Origin: Loktanella sp. PT4BL
GTDB lineage: Bacteria > Pseudomonadota > Alphaproteobacteria > Rhodobacterales > Rhodobacteraceae
Assembly (NCBI RefSeq): GCF_003201935.1
Contig: NZ_QJJL01000002.1
Coordinates: 682,001-746,000 of the forward strand
Reading direction: 5' to 3'
Length of the DNA: 64,000 nt
The number at the start of each line of letters is the position of its first letter. Positions within the stretch are counted from its first letter, which is position 1. This document shows, piece after piece, positions 5,420 through 36,148 of this stretch. A model generated the notes under the pieces. It had not been told where the DNA came from. It ran no database searches and saw only the letters and a list, made by a program, of their open reading frames with translations. A program made the translations under genes and the position numbers.

Positions 5420-5435
5420 AAAAAACTCAATTCTG

Positions 5436-5462
5436 AAAACTGTTGTATAGGTTAACAGTTTT
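5436..5462. promoter_or_regulatory. Putative operator: 9-bp perfect inverted repeat in divergent promoter
   Basis: AAAACTGTT and AACAGTTTT flank a 9-base spacer in the 88-base gap between the divergent hydratase (start 5419) and amidohydrolase (start 5508). Arm-to-arm centre distance is 18 bases, close to two helical turns, as expected for a dimeric repressor site. No candidate dedicated repressor gene is in this window; it would be expected to the left of base 1. Confidence 0.55.
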
Positions 5463-5507
5463 GCTGTATATCTTTTTTTGCACGGACTGGTCATGCGGGA
5501 GGATTAC

Positions 5508-20283: not shown

Positions 20284-20288
20284 GTTGC

Positions 20289-20996: not shown

Positions 20997-21027
20997 GGCG
21001 GCACCTCCCCGAGCCGACACATGAAAA

Positions 21028-21056
21028 TTGATACACTATTGTTGCACAGATATTTG
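21028..21056 (+). promoter_or_regulatory. Possible promoter of the monooxygenase-TRAP operon
   Basis: TTGATA and TATTTG are 17 bases apart and lie 45 bases before the start at 21101. The -35 matches 5 of 6 and the -10 only 3 of 6 of the consensus, so this is a weak call. Confidence 0.25.
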
Positions 21057-21100
21057 CGTGCTAGGCAAGTGGAAACACGATCTTCTGGGGAGGAGAATCA

Positions 21101-22258
21101 ATGACCATCGTGCCCATCACCAGCCCCGATCTGGATGCTGTGGAAGTGTCATGGTTTTCCGCGCTCTGTTCGGACGATTACCAGTTTCTGGGCGTGCCTG
21201 ACGGCGAACTGCGCTCCTCATGGGAGCACTGCCGCGACATCGCACTCACGGCTGAAAAACAAGGGTTCCGCAACATCCTCGCCCCTTCGTCCTATCAGGT
21301 CGGTCAAGACACGCTGTCCTTTGTCGCAGGCATGGCCCCGCTCACCGAAAAGATCAATTTCCTCGCCGCGATCCGCTGTGGCGAAGTGCAACCGATCATG
21401 CTTGCCCGCACCATCGCGACACTCGATCACATGCTCAAAGGGCGCCTGACGCTCAACGTCATCAGCTCGGACTTCCCAGGCGAAGTCGCAGACAGTGCTT
21501 TCCGCTATAAACGCAGCCACGAGGTTGTTGAAATCCTGCGTAAATGCTGGACGCAGGATGAAGTCAGCTATGACGGCGAGATCTACCAGATCTCCAAACT
21601 CACCACCGATCCCGCCAAACCCTATCAGCAGAACGGCGGGCCGCTCTTGTACTTTGGCGGCTACTCGCCTGCGGCTCTCGAACTTTGCGGCGCGCAATGC
21701 GATGTCTATCTGATGTGGCCCGAAACCACCGACATGCTGGAACAGCGCATGAAAGACGTGCACGCCCGCGCGGCCGAACATGGCCGGACACTCGACTACG
21801 GGCTGCGCGTCCATATGATCGTGCGCGATACCGAAGCCGAAGCGAAGGAATACGCCGACTACATCGCCTCCAAGCTGGATGATGAATACGGCAAACTGAT
21901 CCGCGACCGCGCCCATGACAGCATTTCGCTGGGTGTCGCACATCAGTCGAGGGCCCGCGAACTGGCGGATAAATACGGTTACACCGAACCCGGTCTCTGG
22001 ACCGGCGTAGGCCGCGCCCGTTCGGGCTGCGGTGCGGCATTGGTCGGCTCGACCGATCAGGTCATGTCCAAAATCGAAGCCTATCAAAAGATGGGCATCC
22101 GTGCTTTCATCTTTTCGGGCTACCCGCATATCGACGAGGCCGAACACTTTGGCGCGCGCGTTATGCCGCATCTGAAAACCTGCTCGCTGCCCCACGCTTA
22201 CGGGCGTGTCCCGGCCGAAACACCCGCAACACCCCTAGGAACAGGACCCCGCCGTTAA
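21101..22258 (+). CDS. LLM-class flavin-dependent monooxygenase (alkanesulfonate monooxygenase-like)
   Basis: A 385-aa luciferase-like monooxygenase of the SsuD group, using reduced FMN. Family segments include FLAAIRCGEVQPIMLARTIA, LNVISSDFPGE, LLYFGGYSPAALEL and the C-terminal FIFSGYPHIDEAEHFG. The start follows GGGGAGGAG. Its stop TAA overlaps the next start (TAATG). A flavin reductase two genes downstream would supply FMNH2, so this is probably a two-component oxygenase. Whether the substrate is a sulfonate or another small molecule is not shown. Confidence 0.85.
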   Translation: MTIVPITSPDLDAVEVSWFSALCSDDYQFLGVPDGELRSSWEHCRDIALTAEKQGFRNILAPSSYQVGQDTLSFVAGMAPLTEKINFLAAIRCGEVQPIMLARTIATLDHMLKGRLTLNVISSDFPGEVADSAFRYKRSHEVVEILRKCWTQDEVSYDGEIYQISKLTTDPAKPYQQNGGPLLYFGGYSPAALELCGAQCDVYLMWPETTDMLEQRMKDVHARAAEHGRTLDYGLRVHMIVRDTEAEAKEYADYIASKLDDEYGKLIRDRAHDSISLGVAHQSRARELADKYGYTEPGLWTGVGRARSGCGAALVGSTDQVMSKIEAYQKMGIRAFIFSGYPHIDEAEHFGARVMPHLKTCSLPHAYGRVPAETPATPLGTGPRR

Positions 22259-23148
22259 TGACCCGTATCTCGATCACCAACGACCTTTCCTTTAGCCGTA
22301 TCGTCTATGGCATGTGGCGTCTGGGCGATGACAGCGACACGTCCGTGGCGCACGTTCAGGCCAAGATCGAGGCCTGCCTTGAACAAGGCATCACGACGAT
22401 GGATCAGGCCGATATCTACGGCGGCTATGAGGCCGAAGAGGTGCTGGGCGCAGCACTCAAAGCAGCCCCTGCCCTGAAGGACCAGATCGAGATCGTCACA
22501 AAATGCGATATCGTGGCCCCCGCAGGGCGCTATGCGGATGCACGGGTGAAATACTATGACACCAGCCGCGCGCATATCCTCGCATCCGTAGATCATTCCC
22601 TGCGGCTGATGAACATCGACAAGATCGACACCCTGCTGATCCATCGCCCCGATCCGATGATGGACCACCATGAAACAGGTGCCGCACTGGATGAGGTTGT
22701 GGCCTCTGGCAAGGTCCGCTCGGTCGGCGTGTCCAACTTCAAACTGCACGACTGGACCCTGCTGCAATCTGCGATGAAAACGCGGCTGGTGACCAACCAG
22801 ATCGAACTGTCGCTGACCGCGCATGCAGGGTTTACCAACGGCGATGTGGCCTACCTGCAAGAGCGTAATATCCCCATTATGGCATGGTCCCCCTTGGGCG
22901 GTGGCAGCCTGATGACAGGCACAGGGGCAGCCCAGGACGCGCTGGCCAAAGTGGCGGCCGAGAATGGCGTAGACAATGCCACCGTCGCAGTGGCATGGTT
23001 ACTGGCGCATCCGGCAAACATCATGCCGGTCATGGGCACGAATAATATCAATCGTATCAAATCACTCTCGGACGCTTTGAAAGTGAATATGGACCGTGAA
23101 ACATGGTTCGAACTTTACACAGCCGCACTCGGCACAGAGGTACCATAA
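22258..23148 (+). CDS. Aldo/keto reductase
   Basis: A 296-aa (beta/alpha)8 NADPH-dependent reductase, similar in layout to YdhF. Catalytic Asp and Tyr lie in MDQADIYGGYEAEE, followed by DTLLIHRPDPMM and VRSVGVSNF. It is joined at both ends by TAATG overlaps to the monooxygenase and flavin reductase genes, so the three are translated as a unit. It may reduce an aldehyde or ketone made by the monooxygenase. Confidence 0.87.
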   Translation: MTRISITNDLSFSRIVYGMWRLGDDSDTSVAHVQAKIEACLEQGITTMDQADIYGGYEAEEVLGAALKAAPALKDQIEIVTKCDIVAPAGRYADARVKYYDTSRAHILASVDHSLRLMNIDKIDTLLIHRPDPMMDHHETGAALDEVVASGKVRSVGVSNFKLHDWTLLQSAMKTRLVTNQIELSLTAHAGFTNGDVAYLQERNIPIMAWSPLGGGSLMTGTGAAQDALAKVAAENGVDNATVAVAWLLAHPANIMPVMGTNNINRIKSLSDALKVNMDRETWFELYTAALGTEVP

Positions 23149-23651
23149 TGGACGCAGGCACGATCGCCACATTCGACCCCAGCACCGACAGCGACAGCTT
23201 TCGCGGTGCCTTGGGCACCTTCGTCACCGGTGTGACCATCATCACCACCGATAGCCCTGAAGGACCTGTTGCTATCGTCGCCAACAGCTTTGCCAGCGTG
23301 TCGCTCGATCCGCCACTGGTGCTGTGGTCGCCTGCAAAATCATCCAAGCGCTTTGAACATTTCGCCGGCTCGCGCCGCTTTGCCGTACATGTTATGGCGG
23401 CGGACCAGCGCGATATCTGTGCGGCCATCATCAAATCCAAGACCGCGATCAAAGACGTACCAACGCATCTGTCGCACTGCGGCATGCCGATCATCGAAGG
23501 CGCGCTGGCCACGTTCGAATGCAATCTCGAGGCCACACATGACGCTGGCGACCACGTGATTGTCGTAGGCCTTGTCACCAAGGCCCACCACCGTGGCGGC
23601 GATCCGCTCGTCTTTCACGCGGGAAAATACGGAGAGTTCAGCGCGACCTGA
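23148..23651 (+). CDS. Flavin reductase family protein
   Basis: A 167-aa FMN-binding split-barrel reductase. FRGALGTFVTGVTIITT and ANSFASVSLDPPLVLWSPAKSS are the typical flavin-binding segments. The start at 23148 is fixed by the TAATG overlap; a longer reading frame begins at 23103 inside the previous gene. It probably supplies reduced FMN to the luciferase-like monooxygenase upstream. Confidence 0.88.
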   Translation: MDAGTIATFDPSTDSDSFRGALGTFVTGVTIITTDSPEGPVAIVANSFASVSLDPPLVLWSPAKSSKRFEHFAGSRRFAVHVMAADQRDICAAIIKSKTAIKDVPTHLSHCGMPIIEGALATFECNLEATHDAGDHVIVVGLVTKAHHRGGDPLVFHAGKYGEFSAT

Positions 23652-23663
23652 TCTTATCATTTT

Positions 23664-23712
23664 GCCCTAAATATTCTGGGGCAGCCGCAGCATGCGGCGG
23701 GGGCAAAGCCCC
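23664..23712. repeat. Gene-end palindromic element (related family)
   Basis: After the flavin reductase stop, GCCCTAAATAT is followed by two small hairpins: CCGCAGCATGCGG, then GGGGC-AAA-GCCCC. The first part resembles GCCCGAAAATAT and GCCCGTAAATAT found after two other genes in this window (about 31396 and 43695). It looks like a dispersed gene-end repeat. Confidence 0.45.
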
Positions 23713-23757
23713 AAGAACACAAGGGCGCAAGCCCGCACATAAACAGGGGAGGAGCCG

Positions 23758-24354
23758 ATGTCGGTCCTGTTTGGTCTTTTATGGCCGCTTGAACGGTTCA
23801 ACACCGTGGTCCTTGCCATCGGCAAGGTGATCGCGGTGATCGCACTCGCCATCATGGTCGCGCTGATCCTGGGGCAGGTCTTCTTCCGCTATGTGCTCAG
23901 CGATGCCCCGAACTGGACGGAAGAAGGCGCGCGCTTCGGGATGCTCTGGATGACAGGGCTGATGGCGCCGCTTGCATTCCGCATGGGCGGGTTTGTGTCG
24001 ATCGACATGCTTGAACGCGCCCTGCCCCGCGTTGTCTCCGGCCTGCTCACGCTGCTGATCCTCAGCATCGCCCTTTGGGTGCTTGTCATCGCGTGGGAAC
24101 GCGGGCTGAACAACCATGTCCAGACGCTTTCAGGGCGCGGGTGTTCGTCCTCGCTGCGCTGGCCCTTCGGGATCGAGATCGGTAAATGCGGTGCCAAGTT
24201 CCAGAACAACTATCAATATGCATCGCTCTTTGTGGGGGTGAACCTGCTGATCCTTGTGAATGTGGAACTGATCATCCGCCAGATCATCAAGCTCTTGGGC
24301 CAAGGCGACCGCCTCACACCGCTCAATGCCGATGACTTTCAGGGAGCCGACTGA
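23758..24354 (+). CDS. TRAP transporter small permease (DctQ family)
   Basis: A 198-aa membrane protein with four hydrophobic segments, including ALIMVALILGQVFFRYVLSD, the DctQ-like second segment. It has an unusual polar insertion of about 30 residues containing two Cys (GRGCSSS and IGKCGAK) before the last segment. The start follows GGGGAGGAG. The stop overlaps the dctM start (TGATG). Second TRAP system of the window, downstream of the monooxygenase genes. Confidence 0.85.
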   Translation: MSVLFGLLWPLERFNTVVLAIGKVIAVIALAIMVALILGQVFFRYVLSDAPNWTEEGARFGMLWMTGLMAPLAFRMGGFVSIDMLERALPRVVSGLLTLLILSIALWVLVIAWERGLNNHVQTLSGRGCSSSLRWPFGIEIGKCGAKFQNNYQYASLFVGVNLLILVNVELIIRQIIKLLGQGDRLTPLNADDFQGAD

Positions 24355-25925
24355 TGCTTTTATGGTTCCTTCCCCTTTTCCTTGTCCTGATCATGATCGG
24401 CCTGCCAGTGGTCTTTGCATTGCTGGCCTCGCCTTTCGCGCTGATCATGCTCGAAGGCGACAACCGCAACGTCGTCGCAGGGCTTTACCGCAACCTTTAC
24501 AACGGCATGGACAGCTTTCCACTGATGGCACTGCCTTTCTTCATGCTGGCAGGCGAGATCATGAACCGTGGCGGCATTACCCTGCGGCTGGTGGAATTCG
24601 CGCAGGCCTTCATGGGCCATTTGCGCGGCGGTCTGGCCCATGTGAACATTCTGTCATCCATGCTGTTCGCGGGCCTTTCCGGTTCTGCCGTAGCAGATAC
24701 CTCTGCCATCGGCTCCACCATGATCCCCGCGATGGAGAAAAACGGCTACACCCGCAAATTCGCCGCCGCGATCACCGCCGCCTCATCGGTCATCGGCCCG
24801 ATCATCCCGCCATCGGGCATCATGATCATCTACGCCTATGTGATGGGCGAAAGCGTGGCCTCGCTCTTCCTTGCGGGTATCTTGCCGGGCATCATGGTCG
24901 GCGTCGGGTTGATGGTGATGGTCCGCCTGATGGCCGACCGCTATGACCTGCCCAAGGCAGAGCGGATCGTCACCAAGAACCAGACGATCACGCCGATTGA
25001 ATACTGGGTCAGCTTTGCGCTCGTGCGGATCAATCTGGCAGGCCTCCTGATGGCGCTTTACGCGGGGCTGTCGGGCCTGGTTGGTCTGTCTTCAATCAAT
25101 GACGCCGGCGACAAGGTGCATAGCCTGAACCTCTGGATCGTCTTCGGCCTGCTGCTGATTGCCGCCCATTTCATGCTGATGGGCTACCGCAAGCGCGTGA
25201 CCCACGATTTCCGCATGGTCTGCAAGAAGGCCATCGCGCCTCTGCAAACCCCCATCATCATTCTGGGCGGCATCCTTGTGGGTGTCTTCACCCCGACCGA
25301 GGCCTCTGCCGTGGCGGTGGCCTATGCGCTGATCGTGAGCTTTTTTGTACTGCGCTCCATGAAGTTGCGCGATCTGGGCGAGGTGCTGACGCGTTCGGCG
25401 CTGGCCACCTCGGCGGTGCTCCTGTTGGTCGGGGCGGCGGTTGCTTTCAAGACTGTCGTATCCCTGTCATACGCCCCGCAGATCCTCAGCGACTATATCC
25501 TGTCGCTGTCAGAAAACCCGCTGATGCTCTTGTTCCTGATCAACATCCTGTTGTTTATCGTCGGCATGTTCCTCGATGCAGGCCCCGCGATTATCATTCT
25601 GGGGCCAATCCTCGGGCCGATCTTTGTGGATCTTGGCGTGCACCCCGTCCACTTCGCCATCATCATGAGCGTGAACCTGACCGTGGGGCTGGCAACGCCG
25701 CCCATGGGGCTTGTGTTATTCGTGGCCAGTACCGTGTCGGGTGAACGGGTCGAGACCATTGCCAAAGCGATCCTGCCATTTCTTGCGGTGGAAATCCTGG
25801 TGATCTTCCTGATCACCTATATTCCCGCCATTTCCATGACAGTGCCATACCTTGCAGGCTTCTTGGGCTGCGGCCCCGAAGTCGGGTTTAGCGCCTGCAT
25901 TAGCCCACCACCGGGCATCAACTAA
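24354..25925 (+). CDS. TRAP transporter large permease (DctM family), long form
   Basis: A 523-aa large permease with DctM features: FFMLAGEIMNRGGITLRLVEFA, GLSGSAVADTSAIGSTMIPA and GPIIPPSGIMIIYAYV. It is about 80 residues longer than the other DctM in this window, mostly because of an insertion of two extra hydrophobic segments around residues 215-290. It overlaps dctQ by one base. The substrate is unknown. Confidence 0.9.
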   Translation: MLLWFLPLFLVLIMIGLPVVFALLASPFALIMLEGDNRNVVAGLYRNLYNGMDSFPLMALPFFMLAGEIMNRGGITLRLVEFAQAFMGHLRGGLAHVNILSSMLFAGLSGSAVADTSAIGSTMIPAMEKNGYTRKFAAAITAASSVIGPIIPPSGIMIIYAYVMGESVASLFLAGILPGIMVGVGLMVMVRLMADRYDLPKAERIVTKNQTITPIEYWVSFALVRINLAGLLMALYAGLSGLVGLSSINDAGDKVHSLNLWIVFGLLLIAAHFMLMGYRKRVTHDFRMVCKKAIAPLQTPIIILGGILVGVFTPTEASAVAVAYALIVSFFVLRSMKLRDLGEVLTRSALATSAVLLLVGAAVAFKTVVSLSYAPQILSDYILSLSENPLMLLFLINILLFIVGMFLDAGPAIIILGPILGPIFVDLGVHPVHFAIIMSVNLTVGLATPPMGLVLFVASTVSGERVETIAKAILPFLAVEILVIFLITYIPAISMTVPYLAGFLGCGPEVGFSACISPPPGIN

Positions 25926-25947
25926 CAGCATCAACAGGGAGAGAATA

Positions 25948-27003
25948 ATGCTGAGACAGTTCACAAAAATCGCGGCCACCGCCGCACTGCTGGCGACCCC
26001 GCTGGCGGCCTGGGCACAGGATTTCACAATCCGCGCCACGGCCAACTCGAACGAGAACGACGAGGACTATGATGGTCTGGTCGTGTTCAAAAACTACGTA
26101 GAAGCGGCCTCGAACGGACGCATTGCCGTGGAACTCTTCATCGGCACCCAGCTGTGCGCGACCGGTGCGGAATGCCTCGAAGGTGTCTCTGAAGGCTCCA
26201 TCGACGTCTACATTTCCACATCCGGCGGTGCCGCAGGCATCTTCCCCTATGTGCAAGTGCTTGACCTGCCTTACCTGATGTCATCCGACCGCGTGGCCGA
26301 GGCCGTTCTGTCAGGTGATTTCGTCCGCACCCTGCGCGACAAGGCGCTTGAGGACAGCGGCAACACCGTGCGCCTGATGACCGTCGGCAACACCGGCGGC
26401 TGGCGCAACTTTGCCAACACCGAACGCCGCGTGCAGGGGCCAAGCGATTTGGCCGGCCTGAAACTGCGCACCGTTGTGGCCGATCTGCCTGTGCAACTGG
26501 TCGAAGCCATGGGTGCCTCTGCGACACCGATCCCGTGGCCGGAACTGTTCACATCGCTGCAAACAGGCGTTGTTGAAGGTACAGCCAATGGCATCACCGA
26601 CATCATGGGCATGAAGTTCCCCGATGCAGGCCTGCAATACCTCACCTTGGACGGCCACTCCTACATGGGTGCGCTGTGGTGGATGAACAACGACAACTTC
26701 CTCGCGATGCCAGAAGACCTGCGTCGCGTTTTGGTTGACGGCTTCTCTGCGCTACAGCAGGCAACCTTCGCATCCCCCAAGCGCAAATCCATCGAAGCCT
26801 ACGAGGCCTTCGTTGCAGGTGGCGGCGACATCTATGTGCCAAGCCCGGAAGAGAAGGCGGCCTTCGCAGAAGCCGCAGCCCCCGTATATGCATGGTTCCG
26901 TGAAAACGTGGACGGCGGTAGTGAGATGCTGGACGCGCTGATCGCAGCCACAGCCGAGGTCGAGGCCGAACTGGCCGCCGACTATGCCAGCGACCTGAAC
27001 TAA
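25948..27003 (+). CDS. TRAP transporter substrate-binding protein (DctP family)
   Basis: A 351-aa periplasmic binding protein. The signal peptide runs MLRQFTKIAATAALLATPLA to AWAQ. DLAGLKLRTVVADLPVQLVEAMGA holds the conserved Arg region, followed by PWPELFTSLQTGVVEGTANG. The start at 25948 follows AGGGAGAGAATA. It ends just before a strong terminator. With dctQ and dctM it completes the transporter, likely importing the substrate of the upstream two-component monooxygenase. Confidence 0.9.
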   Translation: MLRQFTKIAATAALLATPLAAWAQDFTIRATANSNENDEDYDGLVVFKNYVEAASNGRIAVELFIGTQLCATGAECLEGVSEGSIDVYISTSGGAAGIFPYVQVLDLPYLMSSDRVAEAVLSGDFVRTLRDKALEDSGNTVRLMTVGNTGGWRNFANTERRVQGPSDLAGLKLRTVVADLPVQLVEAMGASATPIPWPELFTSLQTGVVEGTANGITDIMGMKFPDAGLQYLTLDGHSYMGALWWMNNDNFLAMPEDLRRVLVDGFSALQQATFASPKRKSIEAYEAFVAGGGDIYVPSPEEKAAFAEAAAPVYAWFRENVDGGSEMLDALIAATAEVEAELAADYASDLN

Positions 27004-27021
27004 GGTCCGGCACGGAAAAAA

Positions 27022-27053
27022 CGAAAGGCCGCTCCATCGGGGCGGCCTTTTTT
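27022..27053 (+). terminator. Rho-independent terminator after TRAP operon
   Basis: GGCCGCTCC and GGGGCGGCC pair around a 3-base loop and are followed by six T residues. It lies 19 bases after the dctP stop and just before the convergent PepSY gene. A run of A before the stem could let it also act on the minus strand. Confidence 0.85.
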
Positions 27054-27058
27054 GTCGG

Positions 27059-27643
27059 CTATACTTTCAAGCCAACCGCCCGTCTGAAGCGGCGCGCCCG
27101 TGGCAGCCAGAACAACAGCAGGCCCGTGAGCCCGAACAGCACCATCGATATTGCCGTAATATCAGCCAGCCAGCTCGCGAACCTTCTGTCAAACCACCCC
27201 CGCGTATGGATGCGTTTGAAAATCGTGGACCAATAGATCTTGCTGTGCACTTGTGTGCCATCCGGGGCAAAGGTCTTGCGGGTGAAATCTGTCTTCACCC
27301 AGTAATGTCCTGTATCAGCGGCCACGATCACGCTGCCATCGTCATGTTCAAACTGAAAGGCCGCAAACCCGTGATAGTCGACGCGTTCAGCCTCGGCCAA
27401 CGACGCATCAGGCCAAGAACGTCCTGCAATCAACGCCGCCGCATCGGCATCAACAGGGGCCGCCCCCACCCATGCGCGCAGACTGCTTTCCTCGAAAGCG
27501 GCAGGCTCCAGCACATCCAGGATCATCCGCGCATGGTTGAGGTAAAACCCAGTCGCACCGATCACGATGATCCAAGGCAACAATATCACCCCCAGCCAGC
27601 CATGCAGGCTGCGCAAGGTTTTGAGAACTTGGGCTTTGGTCAT
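27059..27643 (-). CDS. PepSY-type membrane protein
   Basis: A 194-aa protein with an N-terminal membrane segment (LHGWLGVILLPWIIVIGATG), a periplasmic part of about 115 residues, and a C-terminal segment (ISMVLFGLTGLLLFWL) ending in basic residues. The LRSLHGWLG start and terminal segment match PepSY-associated membrane proteins. Its start lies one base after the end of the HprK-like/PqqD gene, so it is cotranscribed with it. The role is unknown; the PepSY family is linked to inhibition of proteases or redox and metal handling at the membrane. Confidence 0.75.
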   Translation of the reverse strand: MTKAQVLKTLRSLHGWLGVILLPWIIVIGATGFYLNHARMILDVLEPAAFEESSLRAWVGAAPVDADAAALIAGRSWPDASLAEAERVDYHGFAAFQFEHDDGSVIVAADTGHYWVKTDFTRKTFAPDGTQVHSKIYWSTIFKRIHTRGWFDRRFASWLADITAISMVLFGLTGLLLFWLPRARRFRRAVGLKV

Positions 27644-27644
27644 T

Positions 27645-28907
27645 TCAGACCTCCATTTGTCTTGTTGAGCAAGGCGCGATCAGCCGTTCTTGCCATAAAA
27701 ATTCCAATGCACCCGCAACATCCGCGCGCAAGCGTTCGGCAGGGACGTCCCCGTATAGCTCTTGCATGACCTCAGCCATCTCGGCACCGGTCAGCCCTTC
27801 ATCCAGCAGTGTCCAGATGATCGCAGAGACCGGGTTCAACCGATGGATCGCGAAACCGTCGCCGTCGGCAAGATACAAAGCAGTGCCGGTCTCAAGGGCC
27901 GTAAAATCCGGCAGTTTTGCAAAGTGGCAATCAAGATCAACCGGCCTGTCTACCATCACATCCGGAAGGTCGAGCGGCGCCAGCGGCAAGGTTGCAGACA
28001 TATCCGCCTCGGCCATCTGCGCTGCAGGCAAATCACGCAAGAGCGGGGTCTCATGCAAAAGCGCCGCTGCGTCCTCAACGCTGTTATAGCGCAACCGCAG
28101 CACAGGCACCGTGCGGGTCAATGCCTCCGCCACCCGCAAAATGGCCCCGGCATGCACCTGACGGCCAAAATTCTGTGTGACCAGCGAGGCCATCGCCGCT
28201 TCTTGGGTCACTGGCGTCAGCGACGCAGGCTCTGTCATCGTCGGATCGCCCTCAAGCACAACAATCGCACCAACCGGTGCGGTCGTGCCTGATTGCGGCA
28301 AATCAATACCCGTCAGATACCCGTATTGCTTATTCCGCACGGCAATCCGGTCCATGATCCAACTGTGCAATGTTGCAGAGAGGTTATCCGGCAAAGGCAG
28401 ACGCAAACGCGGCGCAATGCCATTGGCGATCCCGCTGATTGCACCGGTTTGCGGCGTGACCTGTAAGAGGACAAAATCATCAGAGAAGACCGCATGCCCC
28501 CGCTGTGCCAGCGTCGCGGACAATAGGCTTTTGCCGGCACGGCGGGCATTGGGAAAGATCACGAGGCGGTCGTTGAAAGTGAGCGCAGCAGCATGCAGGC
28601 ACAAGAGATCCGGACGACTGCGCAGGCGTTCCCACGACATTTCGACCACAAGATCACAGATCGCGTTTACCGGATCATATTCGGTGACCGGTTTGGCCGC
28701 CAGCGGCGCTTCGAGCCGCCACTTACCCGTCTCTGCCGGACTGATCGTTGCAAACGCAGCGGAGGCTGGCGGGTCATTTTCGGTCACGGTGAAGGGCCAA
28801 GCCGCCATCACCGGATCCAGCAAAGGACGCACGACAGCAGGATTGGCAACACGCAAGGGTGTATCCAGACCGGCAAACCCAAGAGACTGGACTGGACTGT
28901 CAGCCAT
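27645..28907 (-). CDS. HprK-like kinase domain fused to PqqD-like domain
   Basis: A 420-aa protein. Residues about 100-290 resemble the HPr kinase C-terminal fold: LLCLHAAAL at 101-109, a degenerate P-loop PNARRAGKSL at 119-128 (the first Gly of GxxGxGKS is absent), and RGHAVFSDDFVLL at 136-148 with the paired Asp. Residues about 345-412 look like PqqD, the peptide-chaperone fold: LADGDGFAIHRLNPVSAIIW and then an acidic helical part ending LEFLWQERLIAPC. The first 95 residues are not recognised. It lies between a Tat-exported Ser/Pro-repeat protein gene and a PepSY gene. HprK-related kinases with PqqD proteins occur in peptide-modifying clusters; phosphorylation of a neighbouring peptide is an inference. 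Confidence 0.7.
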   Translation of the reverse strand: MADSPVQSLGFAGLDTPLRVANPAVVRPLLDPVMAAWPFTVTENDPPASAAFATISPAETGKWRLEAPLAAKPVTEYDPVNAICDLVVEMSWERLRSRPDLLCLHAAALTFNDRLVIFPNARRAGKSLLSATLAQRGHAVFSDDFVLLQVTPQTGAISGIANGIAPRLRLPLPDNLSATLHSWIMDRIAVRNKQYGYLTGIDLPQSGTTAPVGAIVVLEGDPTMTEPASLTPVTQEAAMASLVTQNFGRQVHAGAILRVAEALTRTVPVLRLRYNSVEDAAALLHETPLLRDLPAAQMAEADMSATLPLAPLDLPDVMVDRPVDLDCHFAKLPDFTALETGTALYLADGDGFAIHRLNPVSAIIWTLLDEGLTGAEMAEVMQELYGDVPAERLRADVAGALEFLWQERLIAPCSTRQMEV

Positions 28908-28913
28908 GGCAAA

Positions 28914-28935
28914 GCGGCCCCTTTGCAGGGGCCGC
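28914..28935 (-). promoter_or_regulatory. Hairpin covering the ribosome binding site of the HprK-like/PqqD gene
   Basis: GCGGCCCC and GGGGCCGC form a perfect 8-bp stem with a 6-base loop. The 3' arm ends 6 bases before the ATG at 28907 and contains the only G-rich Shine-Dalgarno-like stretch. Folding would hide the start of the kinase gene and leave the upstream peptide gene's message intact at its 3' end. Confidence 0.55.
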
Positions 28936-28999
28936 GATATGGGTCAACCTGCCCACACGGGTCAGACTGACCAAAGCGATGTGTAAGGACACATTCATC

Positions 29000-29347
29000 T
29001 TAGTCGGGCGTGCAAACCTTTCCGTTGGAATTGTATGTGCTGCCATCCCAGCTTGTCCCCGCAGCGCAACCATTCGCATCGGTGGAAGAGTCACTTGGTC
29101 CGGAAGACATGCTTGGTGTGCTCGGGCTGCTTGGTGAGCTCGGGTTGCTTGGGCCACTGGGGTCACTTGGTGCGCTGGGGTTGCTCGGTGCGCTTGCCGG
29201 GCTGTTGGAGGAAGGTGCAGAGGCCCCGTCCGAAGCATGCGCCATCGACATCGTTGTAAATGCAGGAACCGTATAAGCGGCGGCGGCCAAGCCACCGATC
29301 CGTGTCAAAAGCTGGCGGCGTGAAACTGAAGTTGTCTTGTCTGTCAT
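29000..29347 (-). CDS. Tat-exported small protein with Ser-X-Pro repeat tract
   Basis: A 115-aa protein. SRRQLLTRIGG at residues 9-19 is a twin-arginine signal, followed by a hydrophobic stretch ending near AHA. Residues about 42-88 are a tract of S-x-P triplets (SAPSNPSAPSDPSGP and onward), very rich in Ser. The C-terminal part has two Cys (94 and 112) around GTSWDGSTYNSNGK. The start at 29347 follows AGACAGGATACG. Its gene precedes the HprK-like/PqqD gene by 92 bases on the same strand. It could be the exported substrate of that enzyme. No close family is recognised. Confidence 0.7.
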   Translation of the reverse strand: MTDKTTSVSRRQLLTRIGGLAAAAYTVPAFTTMSMAHASDGASAPSSNSPASAPSNPSAPSDPSGPSNPSSPSSPSTPSMSSGPSDSSTDANGCAAGTSWDGSTYNSNGKVCTPD

Positions 29348-29583
29348 CGTATCCTGTCTTTCTTTTCTTTGTCCTCGGTACGGTATTGCGCACCTTGGCG
29401 TGAAGTATTGCCACTCGAACGCGGCAGGTGAGTGCGACCACCTTGGCCCCAAAAAACAGGGCCTCTCAATCGAGCAAAGGTTTAGACCAGCGAAATAAAC
29501 CGAAGGTATATGCAGGTCTTCACGCTCTTTGCGCCACTGAAAACAAACAAAAATCCTGTTTTTGTTGGGAAATATCCACCCAT

Positions 29584-30084
29584 TCAGCGAAACGGATACA
29601 TCCAGCCTTTGTAGTCATCAATCAGCACTTCCGCCCGCGCGCGTTCTTCCGGCGTCAGACGCGGGGTGATCAATTCCAGCGAATCCAGCGCATCAGGGTC
29701 CCCGCCTATTGCCGATAATGCGTACCAAAGATACGCTCTCACCATATCAGGCGCGGGGATGCCCCGGCCCACTTCATAGTACCACCCCAAGCCGGATTGT
29801 GCGCCAGGATGCCCTTTCAAAGACGCCCGCAAGTACCAGTCAAACGCCCGCTCGTCATCGCGTGCAACGCCCAGGCCAAGCGCGTACATGACACCGATCA
29901 ACTCTTCAGCCTCGGCGTTGCCGGACCGCGCATAAACCTCAAAGAGCGCGCGCGCCTCGGCATAGTCGCCCGCCTCCATCAGATCGCGCGCCACTTCCAT
30001 ATCGGCCTGCGCAGGTGCCGCAAAAAACAACAAGGTTGCACAAATGTATGTACAGGTTGTGTACAGGTTGTGTACGCGTTCCAT
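29584..30084 (-). CDS. Secreted Sel1/tetratricopeptide repeat protein
   Basis: A 166-aa protein with signal peptide MERVHNLYTTCTYICATLLF ending at AQA. Sel1-like repeats follow: ARDLMEAGDYAEARALFEVY, AEAEELIGVMYALGLGV, DDERAFDWYLRASLKGHPGA and the next unit to PDALDSL. The start at 30084 is preceded by GAGGA; a longer frame runs into the divergent peroxidase gene. The first codons overlap the first codons of the peroxidase gene on the other strand by about 15 bases. Such repeats mediate protein contacts; the partner is unknown. Confidence 0.7.
   Translation of the reverse strand: MERVHNLYTTCTYICATLLFFAAPAQADMEVARDLMEAGDYAEARALFEVYARSGNAEAEELIGVMYALGLGVARDDERAFDWYLRASLKGHPGAQSGLGWYYEVGRGIPAPDMVRAYLWYALSAIGGDPDALDSLELITPRLTPEERARAEVLIDDYKGWMYPFR
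30050..30071. repeat. 11-bp tandem repeat at overlapping gene starts
   Basis: GTACAGGTTGT occurs twice in direct succession and is followed by GTAC of a partial third copy. It lies within the first codons of the Sel1 gene and immediately before or at the start of the peroxidase gene. Because 11 is not a multiple of three, gain or loss of a unit would shift the Sel1 frame. Confidence 0.8.
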
Positions 30085-31371
30085 ACAGCAGTCCTCGGGC
30101 TCTTTCTGGGCACCAGTCTGGCGACGGCACAGGGGATAAGCCCCGATGATTACATCCAAGTCGACCCGGATCAAGCCCGCATCGGCCAGCTTCTCTTTTA
30201 CGATAAGATACTGTCAGGAAACAAGAATATCTCCTGCGGGACCTGTCACCATCACGATCACGCAGGCGGTGACGGCCTCTCGCTCGGGATTGGCGAAGGC
30301 GGCATCGGCGTCGGCCCCGAGCGCACCGCCGGATCAGGGCCAGACGCGATCCGCAAACGCATTCCCCGCAACGCGCCAAGCCTTTGGAATCTCGGGCATA
30401 ATGACATTGAGACGCTGTTCCATGACGGCCGCCTGACGCGCTCGGATATCTACGGCAACGGCTACGATTCCCCCGCCGAGGAATGGCTGCCTGCGGGCCT
30501 TGATAACCTCGTGGCTGCACAGGCACTTTTCCCCATGGTGTCGCAATTCGAGATGGCCGGAAACCCCCGCGAAAACGAAATCGCAGGCGCCACTCATGAC
30601 CGCATTGATGTGGCCTGGCCGATCCTTGCAAAACGCGTCCGCACGATCCCCGCTTATGGCGACATGTTTGTCCAGGCCTTTGACCACATTGAAGAACCCG
30701 CTGATGTGACCATTGTGGAAATCGGCAACGCTTTGGGCGCTTTCATCATCAGCGAATGGCAATCCTACGATAGTCCCTATGACAAATGGCTCGCGGGCAC
30801 GCCACTGCCCGAGGACGCCGAACGGGGCCGTCAACTTTTCTTCACGGGTCGCTGCGCATCCTGTCACGCAGGGCCGCTTTTTACCGATCAGAGTTTCCAT
30901 GCGATCGGCCTGCCCGCTTTCGGCCCCGGGCGCACGCGGCCCTGGGACCAGATTTCACGCGATGTGGGCCGTATGGCCGAAACGAACCTGCCACAGGATG
31001 CCTATAAGTTCAGAACACCCTCATTGCGCAATGTGGCCTTGACCGCGCCCTACGGCCACAACGGTGCCTATGCCACATTGGACGGTATCATCCGCCACCA
31101 CGCCGACCCCATGGGCACGGGTGCGGCATGGACACCGGCACAAGCTAACCTGCCCGAAGTCCCCTGGCTCGCCGCGGCTGACTTTGCGATCCGTCAGGAC
31201 CGTTTGGAAATGGCCCGACAATCCGCCGCGATCGACATGCGCCCCGTTGCTTTGACCGAAGCAGAAATCACAGACCTCATCGCCTTTCTGAACGCGCTGA
31301 CCGGCGAAACCGCCCACACCCGCCCGATGGGCCGCCCTGACAGCGTCCCCAGCGGCATCCCCGTCGATTGA
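30070..31371 (+). CDS. Diheme cytochrome c peroxidase / MauG family protein (copy 1)
   Basis: A periplasmic diheme protein of about 433 aa. The start is uncertain; GTG 30070 gives VYAFHTAVLGLFLGTSLATA, a plausible signal peptide ending at AQG, but only a weak ribosome site. Two heme motifs are present: CGTCHHHDHAGGDG and CASCHAGPLF. RIPRNAPSLWNLGHND and FRTPSLRNVALTAPYGHNGA are family segments. It could reduce peroxide or, as in MauG and MbnH, oxidise residues of a partner protein. The gene lies next to the HprK-like/PqqD group. A paralog lies at 43706-45016, and both end in a PSG(I/L)P(V/I)D motif. Confidence 0.85.
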   Translation: MYAFHTAVLGLFLGTSLATAQGISPDDYIQVDPDQARIGQLLFYDKILSGNKNISCGTCHHHDHAGGDGLSLGIGEGGIGVGPERTAGSGPDAIRKRIPRNAPSLWNLGHNDIETLFHDGRLTRSDIYGNGYDSPAEEWLPAGLDNLVAAQALFPMVSQFEMAGNPRENEIAGATHDRIDVAWPILAKRVRTIPAYGDMFVQAFDHIEEPADVTIVEIGNALGAFIISEWQSYDSPYDKWLAGTPLPEDAERGRQLFFTGRCASCHAGPLFTDQSFHAIGLPAFGPGRTRPWDQISRDVGRMAETNLPQDAYKFRTPSLRNVALTAPYGHNGAYATLDGIIRHHADPMGTGAAWTPAQANLPEVPWLAAADFAIRQDRLEMARQSAAIDMRPVALTEAEITDLIAFLNALTGETAHTRPMGRPDSVPSGIPVD

Positions 31372-31380
31372 ATTCACTAC

Positions 31381-31420
31381 ACCCTGTTATTATTGGCCCG
31401 AAAATATCCCCGCCGGAGGC
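31381..31420 (+). repeat. Gene-end element after peroxidase copy 1
   Basis: Begins ACCCTGTTATTATTGGCCCG and continues AAAATATCCCCGCCGGAGGC. It starts 9 bases after the peroxidase stop. An inverted copy with few differences lies at 43669-43706, directly after the stop of the paralogous peroxidase gene, in the same orientation relative to the gene. Confidence 0.75.
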
Positions 31421-31441
31421 TCCGACACCGCCGTAGAGTGC

Positions 31442-32629
31442 CTAGCCCCGCCGGATCATCACCCCGAGGTCGGCCACGTTGGTGCCCGTCGCATCTGTTA
31501 TCAGAAGATCACCCGCAGCTTTCAGCGCGGCATAGCTGTCGTTATTTGCCAACAGCCTGTCCAGATTACCAATCCTGCCAAGAGTATCTTGATCGACAAT
31601 TCCCCCCGCTGCATCGGTCGGCCCGTCACGGCCATCACTGCCCGCTTGCAGGCAGGTCCAGTCTGTCCAGCCGCGCAGCGCGGCCTCCTGCGCGATCCGC
31701 AACGCCAGTTCCTGATTGCGTCCCCCGCGTCCCGTACCGCGCAGAACGACGGTGGTTTCACCTCCCCAGACCGTCGTACCGACAACCGCCTGATCACAAA
31801 TCATCCGCGCAGCATCGGCCACATCACCGGTGACCGGTGTTGCAATCATATGGGCTGCGGGGGCTGCATCTTTCATCGCGGCCACGCTTTTCCCGTTCGA
31901 CCCCACCAATATATTGCGGGCCTCCGGCAAGGGTGCGGGCGGTGCTGCCTGCAGCAAATGATCACGCACGACCTTGGGCAGGTCCTCCCACAACCCATGC
32001 GCCTGCAACAAAGCAATCGCCTGTCCGGCTGTCCCGATCGGTCCAACCGTCGGACCGCTCGCAATGGCCGAAAGATCATCGCCGATCACATCTGACAGGA
32101 TCAGCGCCGTTACTTTCGAAGGGGCCGCATGACGCAGAAACCCGCCACCTTTCAGGTCAGACAACTGCTGGCGGATCAGGTTCATCGCCACGATATCAAG
32201 ACCCGATCCCAGCAGAAGGTCATTCACCCGTGCTTTATCCGCAAGGGTCAACGCCCCCGCCGGCGCAGGCAACAGAGCTGACCCGCCCCCCGATATCAGC
32301 GCCAGCACCGGACCCTCCACCGCATCCAAGGCTGCAATTACGGCCTTCGCTGCCGCTGCGCCGTTTTCATCGGGCACGGGATGCCCAGCCGCCATCACCA
32401 CTGCTCCATCCAGATCACTGACGTTCTCGTAGTTCGTCACAACGAGGCATTTCACACCTGCAAACCGCACCAAGGCCGCCTTGGCCATCGACCGCGCTGC
32501 CTTGCCGACCGCGACGATCAAGGCAGGAACAGGCACGTCGTCCACAGCTTCCGAAACCGCCAGATACGGATCGGCCGCCTTCACGCCCGCCTGAAAAATC
32601 CGCAACACCTCCGCGCGGTCATCCTTCAT
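31442..32629 (-). CDS. Glycerate 2-kinase (MOFRL family)
   Basis: A 395-aa GckA/TtuD-type kinase that phosphorylates D-glycerate to 2-phosphoglycerate. VAVGKAARSMAKAAL, GHPVPDENG, LISGGGSALLPAP and the C-terminal GGETTVVLRGTGRGGRNQEL and GSDGRDGPTDAAGG are characteristic. A GTG directly precedes the chosen ATG at 32629. It overlaps the upstream membrane-protein gene by 11 bases. It may feed glycerate from sugar or hydroxypyruvate metabolism into glycolysis. Confidence 0.92.
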   Translation of the reverse strand: MKDDRAEVLRIFQAGVKAADPYLAVSEAVDDVPVPALIVAVGKAARSMAKAALVRFAGVKCLVVTNYENVSDLDGAVVMAAGHPVPDENGAAAAKAVIAALDAVEGPVLALISGGGSALLPAPAGALTLADKARVNDLLLGSGLDIVAMNLIRQQLSDLKGGGFLRHAAPSKVTALILSDVIGDDLSAIASGPTVGPIGTAGQAIALLQAHGLWEDLPKVVRDHLLQAAPPAPLPEARNILVGSNGKSVAAMKDAAPAAHMIATPVTGDVADAARMICDQAVVGTTVWGGETTVVLRGTGRGGRNQELALRIAQEAALRGWTDWTCLQAGSDGRDGPTDAAGGIVDQDTLGRIGNLDRLLANNDSYAALKAAGDLLITDATGTNVADLGVMIRRG

Positions 32630-33830
32630 CACGATCCCCTTTCCTCATGGCTATCAGAGCCGCCATACGCTGCACGATCTGCAATTCCAACTCTGCCGAA
32701 GGCGACGCGCCAAGCGAAGGCATCGCCAATGCGACCAGCACCCTTGGGCGCGAAGCCGCCAACATCACATGGGTCGCAGAATAGCGCGCGAACAGATAGG
32801 CGATATGATCATCGGCCACTGGTCCCAGTTGCGGCGGGTCGCTTCTGCGCAAGACGGGGGCGGCTGCGAAAATCCGGTCCAGCACATCATCCTGCAAACC
32901 CTGCAGGCTCTCTTCGCTGACGACAACCGCGCCTTCCACAAGCGGATGGTCTTGCAGATCGCGCAGGAACGTCATCGGATCATCGGTGCGCGCCACAGCC
33001 AGCTGGCGCAACAAACCAACGCTTTGTTCTTCCAGACGCAGCGCGCGGGCATCATTCAGGATCGCCACGACAAACAGGGTTGTCATGATGGCGGCAATGG
33101 AAAGCAAATATCCATCGCGCCCCAATTGCGCAAAAGCGGCAATCATCGCCCCCACGCCGCAAGCCGCCCCGACCATAACGGCGAGGTTCACAAGCGTTGC
33201 GCGATGCCCGAGATGCGGTCGCCCCAAGCCGATGGCCAGCCAGCACAGGATCAGCACCCCGAGCGCAGAGAACTGGATCGGCAAACCGATGGAGAGCAGC
33301 AGAAAATCACCCGCCGCAAGCGGAATGAACAGGATCAGCGACAGCCCCAAGCGCACGACCATTGCGTTTTCGGTGACAGATAACGAGGCCTTGTCGCGAC
33401 TTATGATCAGCCACCCCGACAAAACGAAGCCCAGTAACTGAAATCCCAAAAGCGCAAACAGCCGCGCGGGATCAATGCTGCCTGAATACCACAGCGAAGA
33501 TACCGCAAAGACCACAGCCCCGCCCCCGATCACCGCCTTGACCAATGGCGGCGCGTGGCGGCGCAACAAGCCCTCGGTCAGGATCAAGACCGCCAAAGGA
33601 ATGATTGCAGCTCCAAGCAGGGTGAGAATACGAAACGCCTCAATCCCTGTGAGGATCATCAGCGCGCGCCCAGCAAAAAGCACCATCGTGACCCGCACGC
33701 CAAACAGAAACCGCCGGTTGATCGGATCATCGCGATCACGGCGCGTCAGCACGGTTTGCAACACAAAGAGCCCCGTCAACGCCGCCGCAGACAGGAAAAG
33801 CTGCGTCATGATCGTGGCGGCGGCAATCAT
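32619..33830 (-). CDS. Unknown integral membrane protein with cytosolic C-terminal domain
   Basis: A 403-aa protein not recognised. The first about 225 residues contain eight or so hydrophobic segments with short charged loops. A helical linker (LNDARALRLEEQSVGLLRQL) leads to a soluble domain of about 140 residues ending in a Glu/Arg-rich helix, a layout reminiscent of sensor proteins with a GAF-like domain but without a kinase. The start at 33830 is chosen because of the ATGA overlap with the upstream gene. Its end overlaps the glycerate kinase gene. Confidence 0.7.
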   Translation of the reverse strand: MIAAATIMTQLFLSAAALTGLFVLQTVLTRRDRDDPINRRFLFGVRVTMVLFAGRALMILTGIEAFRILTLLGAAIIPLAVLILTEGLLRRHAPPLVKAVIGGGAVVFAVSSLWYSGSIDPARLFALLGFQLLGFVLSGWLIISRDKASLSVTENAMVVRLGLSLILFIPLAAGDFLLLSIGLPIQFSALGVLILCWLAIGLGRPHLGHRATLVNLAVMVGAACGVGAMIAAFAQLGRDGYLLSIAAIMTTLFVVAILNDARALRLEEQSVGLLRQLAVARTDDPMTFLRDLQDHPLVEGAVVVSEESLQGLQDDVLDRIFAAAPVLRRSDPPQLGPVADDHIAYLFARYSATHVMLAASRPRVLVALAMPSLGASPSAELELQIVQRMAALIAMRKGDRDEG

Positions 33831-34780
33831 TTGTTGCGCCGCGTATATGGGCGCAGGTGCCCCCATTCCTGCGTGCTATCGGCCCAATGGATCGCTGGCA
33901 AAACAATACGTCTGAGCGCCACGATCCCCCCTGTCAGCAGCAATCCGATCACCGCGGATTTCGGCACTTCGCGTGTCAGGTATGTGCGCATAGCGGCCAC
34001 ATCCATCTGACCCAATTGCAGCACATCATCGCCACGGGCATAGTCCAGTGCCTCTTGGCAAAAGGCGTTATAGCGCGCATCGCGGTGCTTGGGCGCGCTC
34101 TCCCATGTCTTTTTCAGATCATCGGACCCGCCCGTGTAGGCATCGGTAATGACAAAGCGCTCTTCATCAAAACCCGCGTCTGCGCCCACTCCGAAAACAT
34201 GCCGCCGGGTGGCCATGATCTCGCGCGCAAGGAGCAGGTGTGTCAGCGTGCGCCGCCCCTTGTTCGGGCTGGGCCAGACATCGGAAAACATCTCGCTGAC
34301 CATGCCCACGACAGCGGGGACTTGCGTGACGTTGGAGACCCAGACAGGGCGGAACTGGCGGCGGAAAAAGATCAGAAAACAGGTCAGACCATAAAGCACC
34401 CATGACAGGTTCTTGGATCGCTCGTCGGGGTCCACCATAACCAGACCGAGATGCAAGACTTCAGTCGGGTGCGGGGCCGTGTCCAACTTCATTACCGCCA
34501 GAGCGTTAAATGCAACAGGGGTGCCATCGCGGCGCGAGACCAGCGTGATAATCACCGCTTCCATCCGCGACTTATCCCCTGAAAACACGCCATAAGTCAG
34601 GCTGCCCGCATCGAGCGTGCGCGCCGCCACTTGGCGCAGATCAGCGCTCAGCGCGGAAAGGGCGGCCTCATCCATCCACACCCCGGGACACTCGACAATA
34701 CGGACCTCAAAGTCGGCACCGGCGCGCAATGACACATCCATGTATCTACGCCCGAGAGTTCTGAAAATTGTGCCGATCAC
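33827..34780 (-). CDS. Unknown protein, possible GNAT-fold acyltransferase
   Basis: A 317-aa protein starting with GTG 34780 after AGAGGTG. The middle region LGLVMVDPDERSKNLSWVLYG resembles the acetyl-CoA loop of GNAT enzymes, and PVWVSNVTQVPAVVGMVSEM resembles the strand and helix that follow. The C-terminal part has one hydrophobic segment (SAVIGLLLTGGIVALRRIVL). The gene follows xylA after a gap with a 10-bp hairpin and is translationally coupled to the membrane-protein gene. Function unknown; the GNAT reading is tentative. Confidence 0.65.
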   Translation of the reverse strand: MIGTIFRTLGRRYMDVSLRAGADFEVRIVECPGVWMDEAALSALSADLRQVAARTLDAGSLTYGVFSGDKSRMEAVIITLVSRRDGTPVAFNALAVMKLDTAPHPTEVLHLGLVMVDPDERSKNLSWVLYGLTCFLIFFRRQFRPVWVSNVTQVPAVVGMVSEMFSDVWPSPNKGRRTLTHLLLAREIMATRRHVFGVGADAGFDEERFVITDAYTGGSDDLKKTWESAPKHRDARYNAFCQEALDYARGDDVLQLGQMDVAAMRTYLTREVPKSAVIGLLLTGGIVALRRIVLPAIHWADSTQEWGHLRPYTRRNK

Positions 34781-34792
34781 GCTGTCACACCT

Positions 34793-34827
34793 CTGCCGCC
34801 CGCAGCCACGTTAGGCACGGGCGGCAG
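34793..34827 (-). promoter_or_regulatory. Hairpin between xylA and the next gene
   Basis: CTGCCGCCCG and CGGGCGGCAG pair perfectly over 10 bp around a 15-base loop. No T-run follows on the minus strand, so it is more likely an mRNA 3'-end stabiliser or a rho-type boundary than an intrinsic terminator. Confidence 0.5.
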
Positions 34828-34846
34828 GCGGCACAAGAGCGCGGGA

Positions 34847-36148
34847 TCACAGGTAGCGGTTCACCAGATTTTCCAACCGCTCCTGACGGCCGGAACGGGG
34901 TTCTGGGTTGATGCCCTCGGCCTGCACCTTGGCCGTGATGCTGTCCAGATCACTGGCCAGCAGCGCCTTCCCTTCGGCGGTATCCCAACCTGCATAACGG
35001 GCGTTGCGTGCAGCCTCAAGTTTGCCGTCCTCCAGCATCGCCGCAGCCGCTTTCAGGCCCGCCGCACAGGCATCCATCCCGCCCACATGCGCGAGGATCA
35101 GATCCTCTGCATCCAGCGACTGCCGGCGCAGTTTGGCGTCAAAGTTCGTCCCGCCTGTGGTGAAACCACCGGCGCGCAGCACTTCGTAATAGGCCAAGGC
35201 CATCTCGGGCACATTGTTGGGGAACTGGTCGGTGTCCCAACCGGACTGATAGTCGTTGCGGTTCATATCGATCGAGCCGAAAATCCCCAATTCGCGCGCC
35301 AGGGCCAGCTCATGTTCAAAAGAATGGCCCGCAAGGATCGCGTGGCCCTGTTCGATGTTCATCTTGACCTCGCCCTCAAGACCAAAGTCTTTCAGGAAGC
35401 CATAGACCGTCGCCACATCATAATCATACTGATGTTTTGTGGGTTCCTGCGGCTTTGGTTCGATCAGGATCGCGCCTTTGAAACCCATCTTATGTTTATA
35501 ATCTACAACCATCTGCAACATGGCCCCCGCCTGCTGGCGTTCGCGGCCCATGTCGGTGTTCAGCAGCGTCTCATAGCCTTCACGCCCGCCCCAGAGGACA
35601 TAGTTCTCGCCGCCGAGCTTCATCGTCGCATCCATGCAGGTCTTGATGGTGGCCGCCGAATAGGCAAACACATCAGGGTCAGGGTTCGTGGCTGCCCCTG
35701 CCATGAAGCGGCGGTGCGAAAAGAGGTTCGCGGTGCCCCACAGCAGCTTGACGCCGGTCGCCTCCATCTTCTCGGCGAAGTAATCGACAATGGCCTCAAG
35801 GTTCTTTGTGCTCTCGGCAAAGCTCGCCCCTTCGGGCCGCACATCGGCGTCGTGGAAGCAGAAATACGGCACGCCAAGGATCTGGAACATCTCGAAGGCC
35901 ACATCGGCCTTCATCCGCGCGGCATCCATGCTGTCGCCGAACCATGGACGGTCGAAGGTCTGTCCACCGAAAGGGTCGCCACCGGGCCATGCAAAGGAAT
36001 GCCAATAGGCGGCCGCAAAACGCAGATGGTCCTTCATCGCCTTGCCCATCACCACCTCGTCGGGGTTGTAGTGGCGGAATGCGAAATCATTGTCTGTCGA
36101 CGGGCCTTCATAGGTGATGGCGGGGATGCCCTTGAAAAAATCGGTCAT
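34847..36148 (-). CDS. xylA: Xylose isomerase
   Basis: A 433-aa metal-dependent isomerase of D-xylose to D-xylulose, of the longer class II type. [11 protein letters not shown] includes the catalytic His/Asp pair, and [34 protein letters not shown] and the metal-binding [18 protein letters not shown] are all present. It follows xylB with a 4-base overlap and is the last of the xylF-H-G-B-A genes. Confidence 0.97.

Follow-up and report, generated by a model that had tools for sequence, protein, structure and literature searches.

The stretch of 64,000 nt from Loktanella sp. PT4BL analysed here (contig NZ_QJJL01000002.1, positions 682,001 to 746,000; hereafter the window) carries a minus-strand cassette of three genes for proteins of 115, 420 and 194 aa, separated by gaps of 92 nt and then 1 nt. 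A preliminary description of this DNA had proposed that the 420-aa protein, a fusion of an HprK-like and a PqqD-like domain, modifies the adjacent Ser-rich protein before its export by the twin-arginine translocation (Tat) system. Its picture of three tightly spaced genes on one strand agrees with the coordinates and gaps. The PqqD-like domain is treated below as a RiPP recognition element (RRE; RiPP, ribosomally synthesized and post-translationally modified peptide). The features are as follows.

29000..29347, minus strand: 115-aa substrate candidate with a Tat-type signal containing YxxPxF, a Ser triplet repeat and a C-terminal Cys pair (sequence)
29315..29320, minus strand: twin arginine R10-R11 of the Tat-type signal (sequence)
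29258..29275, minus strand: Y25-T-V-P28-A-F30 in the Tat-type signal, predicted RRE-binding motif ([Y/W]xxPx[L/V/I/F/A]; sequence)
29084..29221, minus strand: 16 consecutive Ser-first triplets, S43 to S88, the probable target of the modification (sequence, periodicity, codon mix)
29012..29068, minus strand: C-terminal segment between Cys94 and Cys112 (sequence)
27645..28907, minus strand: 420-aa fusion of an HprK/PEPCK fold and a PqqD-like RRE (PF05402, AlphaFold2 model)
28527..28550, minus strand: degenerate P-loop N120-ARRA-G125-K126-S127 (GKS in 113/113 sequences, first Gly in 1/113)
27672..27932, minus strand: RRE domain, residues 326-412 (PF05402, predicted fold)
27059..27643, minus strand: 194-aa PepSY_TM membrane protein, not a conserved part (PF03929, 44 bits against a cut-off of 28.8)

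The candidate substrate and the fused protein

By reading, the signal of the 115-aa protein (SRRQLLTRIGGLAAAAYTVPAFTTMSMAHAS) has the features of a Tat substrate (SRRQLL...AHAS), i.e., a twin-Arg n-region, a hydrophobic stretch and an AxA site, with presumed cleavage after A36-H-A38. It contains the YxxPxF motif, the key feature that was absent from the preliminary description. Motifs of the form [Y/W]xxPx[L/V/I/F/A] are read by discrete lasso RREs (PMC13381572; this and the two other papers given by PubMed Central (PMC) number are cited from parts of their text). Ser accounts for 25 of the last 77 residues, and Ser-Ser pairs at distance 3 occur 16 times, where shuffled sequences have 7.6 on average (p = 0.0005, the lowest value that 2000 shuffles allow). 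Codons of both Ser families are present in the array (10 TCN and 15 AGY codons with 8 switches), which is therefore not merely a DNA repeat; an origin of such repeats as artefacts of DNA slippage is disfavoured by the mixture of TCN and AGY in all 13 arrays read. A Pfam search at E up to 1 gave no match for the protein. The earlier characterization as a Ser-dense Tat-type protein thus stands, with the RR signal supported by reading and the Ser/Pro repeat confirmed.

The 420-aa protein is confidently predicted to join a PEPCK/HprK-fold domain to a lasso-type, PqqD-like RRE. Its AlphaFold2 model (predicted local distance difference test 94.7, predicted template modelling score 0.92) matches the HprK/PEPCK-type nucleotide-binding fold. 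The HprK-like domain is thereby borne out, though the Pfam HprK model PF07475 reaches just 11.1 bits on this protein, below its gathering score of 33.3. The PqqD fold of the C-terminal domain, on which the preliminary description had staked its proposal, was found both by PF05402 (38 bits, cut-off 23.4) and as a three-strand, three-helix winged fold in the predicted structure. A PDB search with the single 420-aa sequence gave weak matches (best E 0.016) and a profile search did better; profile matches to reverse-transcriptase and other chains (E 0.37-0.95) were taken as chance. The best NCBIfam match of the kinase domain is TIGR04352 (HprK-related kinase A) at 47.8 bits, under the cut-off of 200 bits, and seven split homologues (partial sequences) score 19.9-53.1 bits against this family, the best NCBIfam match for six of them. 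Because these scores are too low, we assign the protein neither to HprK/P nor to TIGR04352. We take TIGR04352 to belong to an 'HPr-rel-A' system and to be paired there with PqqD; its family name gives no substrate.

Conservation was assessed in 113 sequences, i.e., the query and 112 matches longer than 370 aa among the 120 matches listed (one of which, P0001, shares 99% identity with the query). H105, G125, K126, S127, D143, D144, R167, R169, Y195 and Q245-N246-F247 are invariant, so that the catalytic-type residues H105, K126, S127, D143 and D144 are all retained. An intact GxxxxGKS P-loop is absent: the NARRAGKS previously noted as degenerate was confirmed, with GKS intact and the first Gly replaced by Asn here and non-Gly in 112/113. 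R123 is Arg in 107/113 sequences. The proven Ser kinase BsfK carries the motif H148-G163-G166-G168-K169-S170-D186-D187; all of these residues matter except G166 and G168, whose change to Ala leaves near-full activity (PMC10368454). The H-S-D spacing of the 420-aa protein is identical to that of BsfK, and the position of the dispensable G166 is Arg in the fusion family. By this comparison, one important glycine is gone and the remaining catalytic-type residues are kept. In the RRE, N358 (Asn in 95/113, Asp in 15/113) and D396 (Asp in 110/113) align with N33 and D70 of LppB, the polar residues that keep the YxxP leader in place. LppB reads YxxP, with D70 bonding the Tyr and N33 the Pro kink, and the motif is essential for efficient complex formation (PMC13381572).

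Association of kinase and leader across genomes

The Ser-rich neighbour is conserved in homologues, as the survey suggested in the preliminary description was to establish: a same-strand Tat-YxxP gene lies directly upstream at 21 of 22 fused loci from two bacterial classes. Some of the 28 matched genomes did not enter this count: nine had weak matches over part of the protein (E 2e-7 to 7e-4), G115 and G104 carry split pairs, and the kinase relative of G019 (E 2.7e-14, residues 22-243) has one internal stop. When open reading frames (ORFs) were selected for RR and a Ser/Pro/Ala-rich composition, with YxxP not required, they were present at 12 intact fused kinases and contained YxxP in 12/12; by the same selection, the small protein beside the broken G019 kinase is without YxxP. 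Control Tat signals were drawn from 123 places with PF10518 in 8 genomes; 30 were fetched, and YxxP within 36 residues of RR occurred in 0 of the 29 readable in frame, some of which are near-identical orthologues.

A profile of 25 aligned leaders (alignment A3) matched strongly (E < 1e-8) at 24 places in 17 of 146 related genomes, and the kinase was present in 17/17. Among the 18 relatives with a strong kinase match (E < 1e-15), G029 alone lacked the leader, and six weaker leader matches (in five further genomes and at an extra place in G067) were all without YxxP. The class set of 289 genomes contained 23 with the leader, 23 with the kinase (E < 1e-25) and 22 with both, the exceptions being G202 (leader alone) and G274 (kinase alone); the leader was absent from the 52 further genomes whose HprK or PqqD matches were weaker. 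Eleven of the 23 class-set leader genomes gave rows to A3, and 11 of the 12 outside A3 hold the kinase. Kinase and leader are unlinked in 8/22, either on separate contigs (G170, G155, G210) or 25 to 120 kb apart (G298, G174, G115, G305, G285).

All seven class-set split loci above 200 bits, the closest split homologues, also have a Tat-YxxP gene directly upstream on the same strand; the leader of G304 was counted from a separate locus reading, as its frame overlap lies outside the span of the main one. Ten of the 349 genomes in the phylum set matched at E 1e-15, with a Tat-YxxP gene at 6/6 fused loci and none at the loci of four split or partial kinases. For the 13 next-best split loci (L094-L106), such a gene was found near those of G104, G275 and G368 and not at the other ten. 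In a tree of 40 kinase domains, the fused ones lie on one side of a single branch (support 86/84; 90% of bootstrap trees). Three fused genomes (G664, G416, G448) come from another class of the phylum, probably Gammaproteobacteria, since the fused homologues of Oceanisphaera and Halomonas are 42-47% identical to theirs and 30-36% to two alphaproteobacterial loci.

Not all proteins encoded by Tat-YxxP genes are small repeat proteins. A Tat-YxxP-Ser N-terminus precedes a subtilase beside the kinase in G044, G055 and G040 and unlinked in G081, and PF00082 confirms the subtilase for G044, G055 and G081. In G030 it precedes a PepSY domain (25.6 bits, cut-off 24), and the corresponding match in G037 (18.2 bits) is below the cut-off; with this soluble domain, the PepSY theme recurs. 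In a hand-picked set of 20 Ser-rich regions, from which the short peptides of the deeper split branch were absent, all but that of G081 (19 of 20) showed a significant triplet phase of Ser (p < 0.05). Repeats of the types S-x-P, S-x-A, S-R-P and S-E-P occur, and Y-S-R-P ones are present in the other class. By eye, most of 13 aligned substrates have a Cys pair or a Trp/aromatic segment at the C-terminal end.

Proposed phosphorylation before export and its alternatives

Predicted folds, retained residues, the motif, the Ser repeat, linkage and co-occurrence form the basis for proposing that the 420-aa protein is a peptide-guided Ser kinase, to which we give a probability of about 0.62. We infer that its RRE would bind YxxPxF within the Tat-type signal of the neighbouring 115-aa protein, that the HprK-fold domain would phosphorylate the serines of the triplet repeat before Tat export, and that an ordinary signal peptidase would then remove the leader after AHA. 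The product would be a phosphoserine-rich protein outside the cytoplasm; its role, perhaps that of an anionic stalk that may bind metal, is guesswork. As the RRE would read the Tat signal, this signal would serve both as export signal and as RiPP-type leader. It is possible, although we hold this only tentatively and at somewhat less than even odds, that Alpha- and Gammaproteobacteria have a general tagging route in which an RRE-kinase reads YxxP in the Tat signal, phosphates coat Ser-triplet stalks and signal peptidase releases the product, covering small repeat proteins, subtilases and PepSY proteins. If true, RiPP logic would extend from small peptides to secreted enzymes. The phosphorylation proposed for the cassette would itself be a new bacterial way to decorate secreted proteins. 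It gives a group of HprK-related kinases and RRE proteins, orphans so far, a candidate substrate and a recognition code, suggests a second use of Tat signals as RiPP leaders, and predicts phosphoserine-rich secreted proteins, proteases among them.

Several points weigh against a peptide-guided Ser kinase. The P-loop glycine that the fusion family has lost is the equivalent of BsfK G163, which matters for activity, and phosphorylation of BsfA persisted when Y, P and L of its YxxPxL were all changed to Ala, so the motif is not always required by the kinase (PMC10368454). The invariance of Tyr and Pro in the 25 leaders of A3 is partly built in, because most of them were chosen with the YxxP pattern. 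The co-occurrence counts and their Fisher values take no account of relatedness among the genomes, and the cut-offs for the kinase (E 1e-15 for relatives, 1e-25 for the class) were chosen after the hits had been seen. The genome of G029 encodes no leader protein, whether near its fused locus or farther away, and the G081 repeat is not triplet-phased. The mature peptides of the deeper split branch are short, with PS/PC-type cores and no Ser arrays (the start of most resembles PSPC, PSNC, PSGC or TPC); the Ser repeat may thus not be a universal target.

The fusion could instead act as a signal-peptide chaperone, whose RRE binds the YxxP Tat signal and whose HprK-like domain uses nucleotide to time release to the Tat machinery. 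Tat proofreading chaperones bind within signal peptides, which is where the YxxP motif sits, and the loss of the first P-loop Gly and the folded domains such as subtilases among the substrates are also compatible with this role. We nevertheless regard it as unlikely, given the invariance of H105, K126, S127, D143, D144, R167 and R169 in 113/113, the conserved Ser triplets that a pure chaperone leaves unexplained, and the related HprK/RRE pairs that are proven Ser kinases (PMC13381572, PMC10368454). Slightly less probable again is phosphorylation of a single Ser/Thr near the mature N-terminus, with the repeat as a mere flexible linker. BsfK and LppK both act on one core Ser3 (PMC10368454, PMC13381572), and the array-free starts of the deeper branch fit such a site, but Ser is kept at every third residue with mixed codons despite differing linkers and C-termini.

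We consider it highly unlikely that phosphoserine is an intermediate to which another enzyme, e.g., an NTP_transf_5 protein, adds a sugar or nucleotide. Linear polyphosphorylated peptide (LPP) and paeninodin-like clusters do pair HprK with a nucleoside triphosphate (NTP) transferase, and such addition has been proposed there; however, PF14907 (NTP transferase) occurs in 6/15 fused-kinase genomes and never at the kinase locus, and it had no match in the genome of the window (G000). By eye, an NTP_transf_5-like ORF lies beside the split kinase locus of G304 (L087 2654-3652). That the fusion is simply the HPr kinase of the phosphotransferase system, as the HprK-like fold alone would allow, can practically be dismissed, since the 420-aa protein carries an RRE and scores poorly with the Pfam HprK model, and a canonical HprK is encoded elsewhere in the genome (G000:C1:615173-615469, PF07475 61.8 bits).

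The nearest relatives of the cassette are the LPP and phosphorylated-lasso HprK/RRE systems. LPP systems of Bacillota (LppK, LppB, LppA) combine an HprK-like kinase, an RRE and a YxxP precursor whose Ser3 carries phosphates, and their clusters also encode an archaeal-type signal peptidase, an NTP transferase and an MsbA-like transporter (PMC13381572). The same three core elements are present here by predicted fold and sequence, with the RRE residues equivalent as described above. In contrast to LPP, where the RRE is a separate protein, the window has kinase and RRE in one chain, a Tat-type signal as leader and a Ser-repeat protein as substrate; the LPP leader motif is YxxPxVLxHQxIxFETxxS, whereas leaders of the window type continue, by reading, as Tat h and c regions. 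No archaeal-type signal peptidase or MsbA-like transporter was recognised among the ORFs read, for which no family search was run. Since it lacks both an NTP transferase and the complete leader motif, we do not count the cassette as an LPP system. In BsfK/BsfB1 and paeninodin-type phosphorylated lasso peptides, an HprK-like kinase is sped up by an RRE and the leader contains YxxPxL (PMC10368454). Their H..GKS..DD spacing is that of the window kinase, but kinase and RRE of the bsf cluster are separate proteins, and the window has no G163 equivalent in its P-loop and a repeat protein as substrate. No lasso macrolactam synthetase (C) or B2 leader peptidase was recognised among the neighbouring ORFs read, again with no family search run. 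DUF2063 RREs with DUF2282 precursors are likewise RRE-linked and have export signals, in their case Sec signals without a defined RRE motif; the words 'kinase' and 'HprK' occur nowhere in the main text of that paper (PMC12710340).

Among open-licence PMC papers, none was found that unites HprK-related kinase with PqqD, that joins HPr kinase, PqqD and twin-arginine (nine have two of these three), that links the RiPP recognition element with a Tat signal or with twin-arginine and kinase, or that links serine-rich, twin-arginine and HPr kinase. Those combining RiPP, twin-arginine and leader peptide were unrelated, as judged by their listing.

Neighbouring genes and further observations

The proposal that the fusion modifies the adjacent Ser-rich Tat protein before export finds good support in predicted fold, linkage, co-occurrence and YxxP, but the PepSY membrane protein, peroxidase and Sel1 protein, which the preliminary description had counted as components or possible parts, drop out of it. 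The PepSY_TM gene is probably co-transcribed with the fusion gene in the window, yet it was found at only 2/16 fused loci with flanks read up to 10 kb on each side; tblastn (E up to 1e-5) of 21 other fused loci, six of which had flanks of just 1.5 kb, recovered it in G052 only. Upstream of the cassette lies a Sel1-repeat gene on the same strand (family search), from which, by reading, a diheme-peroxidase-like ORF diverges, and TRAP-type transporter genes converge from downstream. In 9/28 DctP loci of the genus, Sel1 and peroxidase genes adjoin the same TRAP gene but the cassette is absent; four of the others have the kinase and 15 neither (within 1.5 kb). One of the nine is that of G037, whose kinase is on a different contig.

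In G037 and G030, a response regulator and histidine kinase (by eye; L038 6728-9309 and L040 6897-9973) directly follow the Tat-YxxP-Ser protein with the PepSY-like end, beside the fused kinase. G030 also encodes a subtilase (L040 18855-19871, PF00082 90.3 bits) about 8 kb from the fused kinase, in an ORF that as read has no Tat-YxxP-Ser N-terminus. Proteins of G664 and G416 (L143, L144) have Y-S-R-P repeats and a common C-terminal WERDGVIELRISRLLP segment, with a His-rich segment in L143.

Short Tat-YxxP peptides, some paired and with PS-x-C or TPC-like starts, were observed at L163, L170, L171, L172, L174, L175 and L128, and are possibly a second substrate class. They come mostly from split HprK/RRE genomes, at a distance of at least tens of kb from the kinase, and that of L174 from G202, where the kinase search found none. 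The G019 kinase relative (L050, ORF 4798-5679) has a TAG stop as read by the search tool, and the signal region of the adjoining SxP-repeat protein (L021 751-1155) is without YxxP or a typical Tat pattern; the pair looks like a decaying copy. In the window itself, the cassette is set (20000-38000) within an otherwise conserved sugar-catabolism-like and TRAP-transporter gene run that is common to sister genomes.
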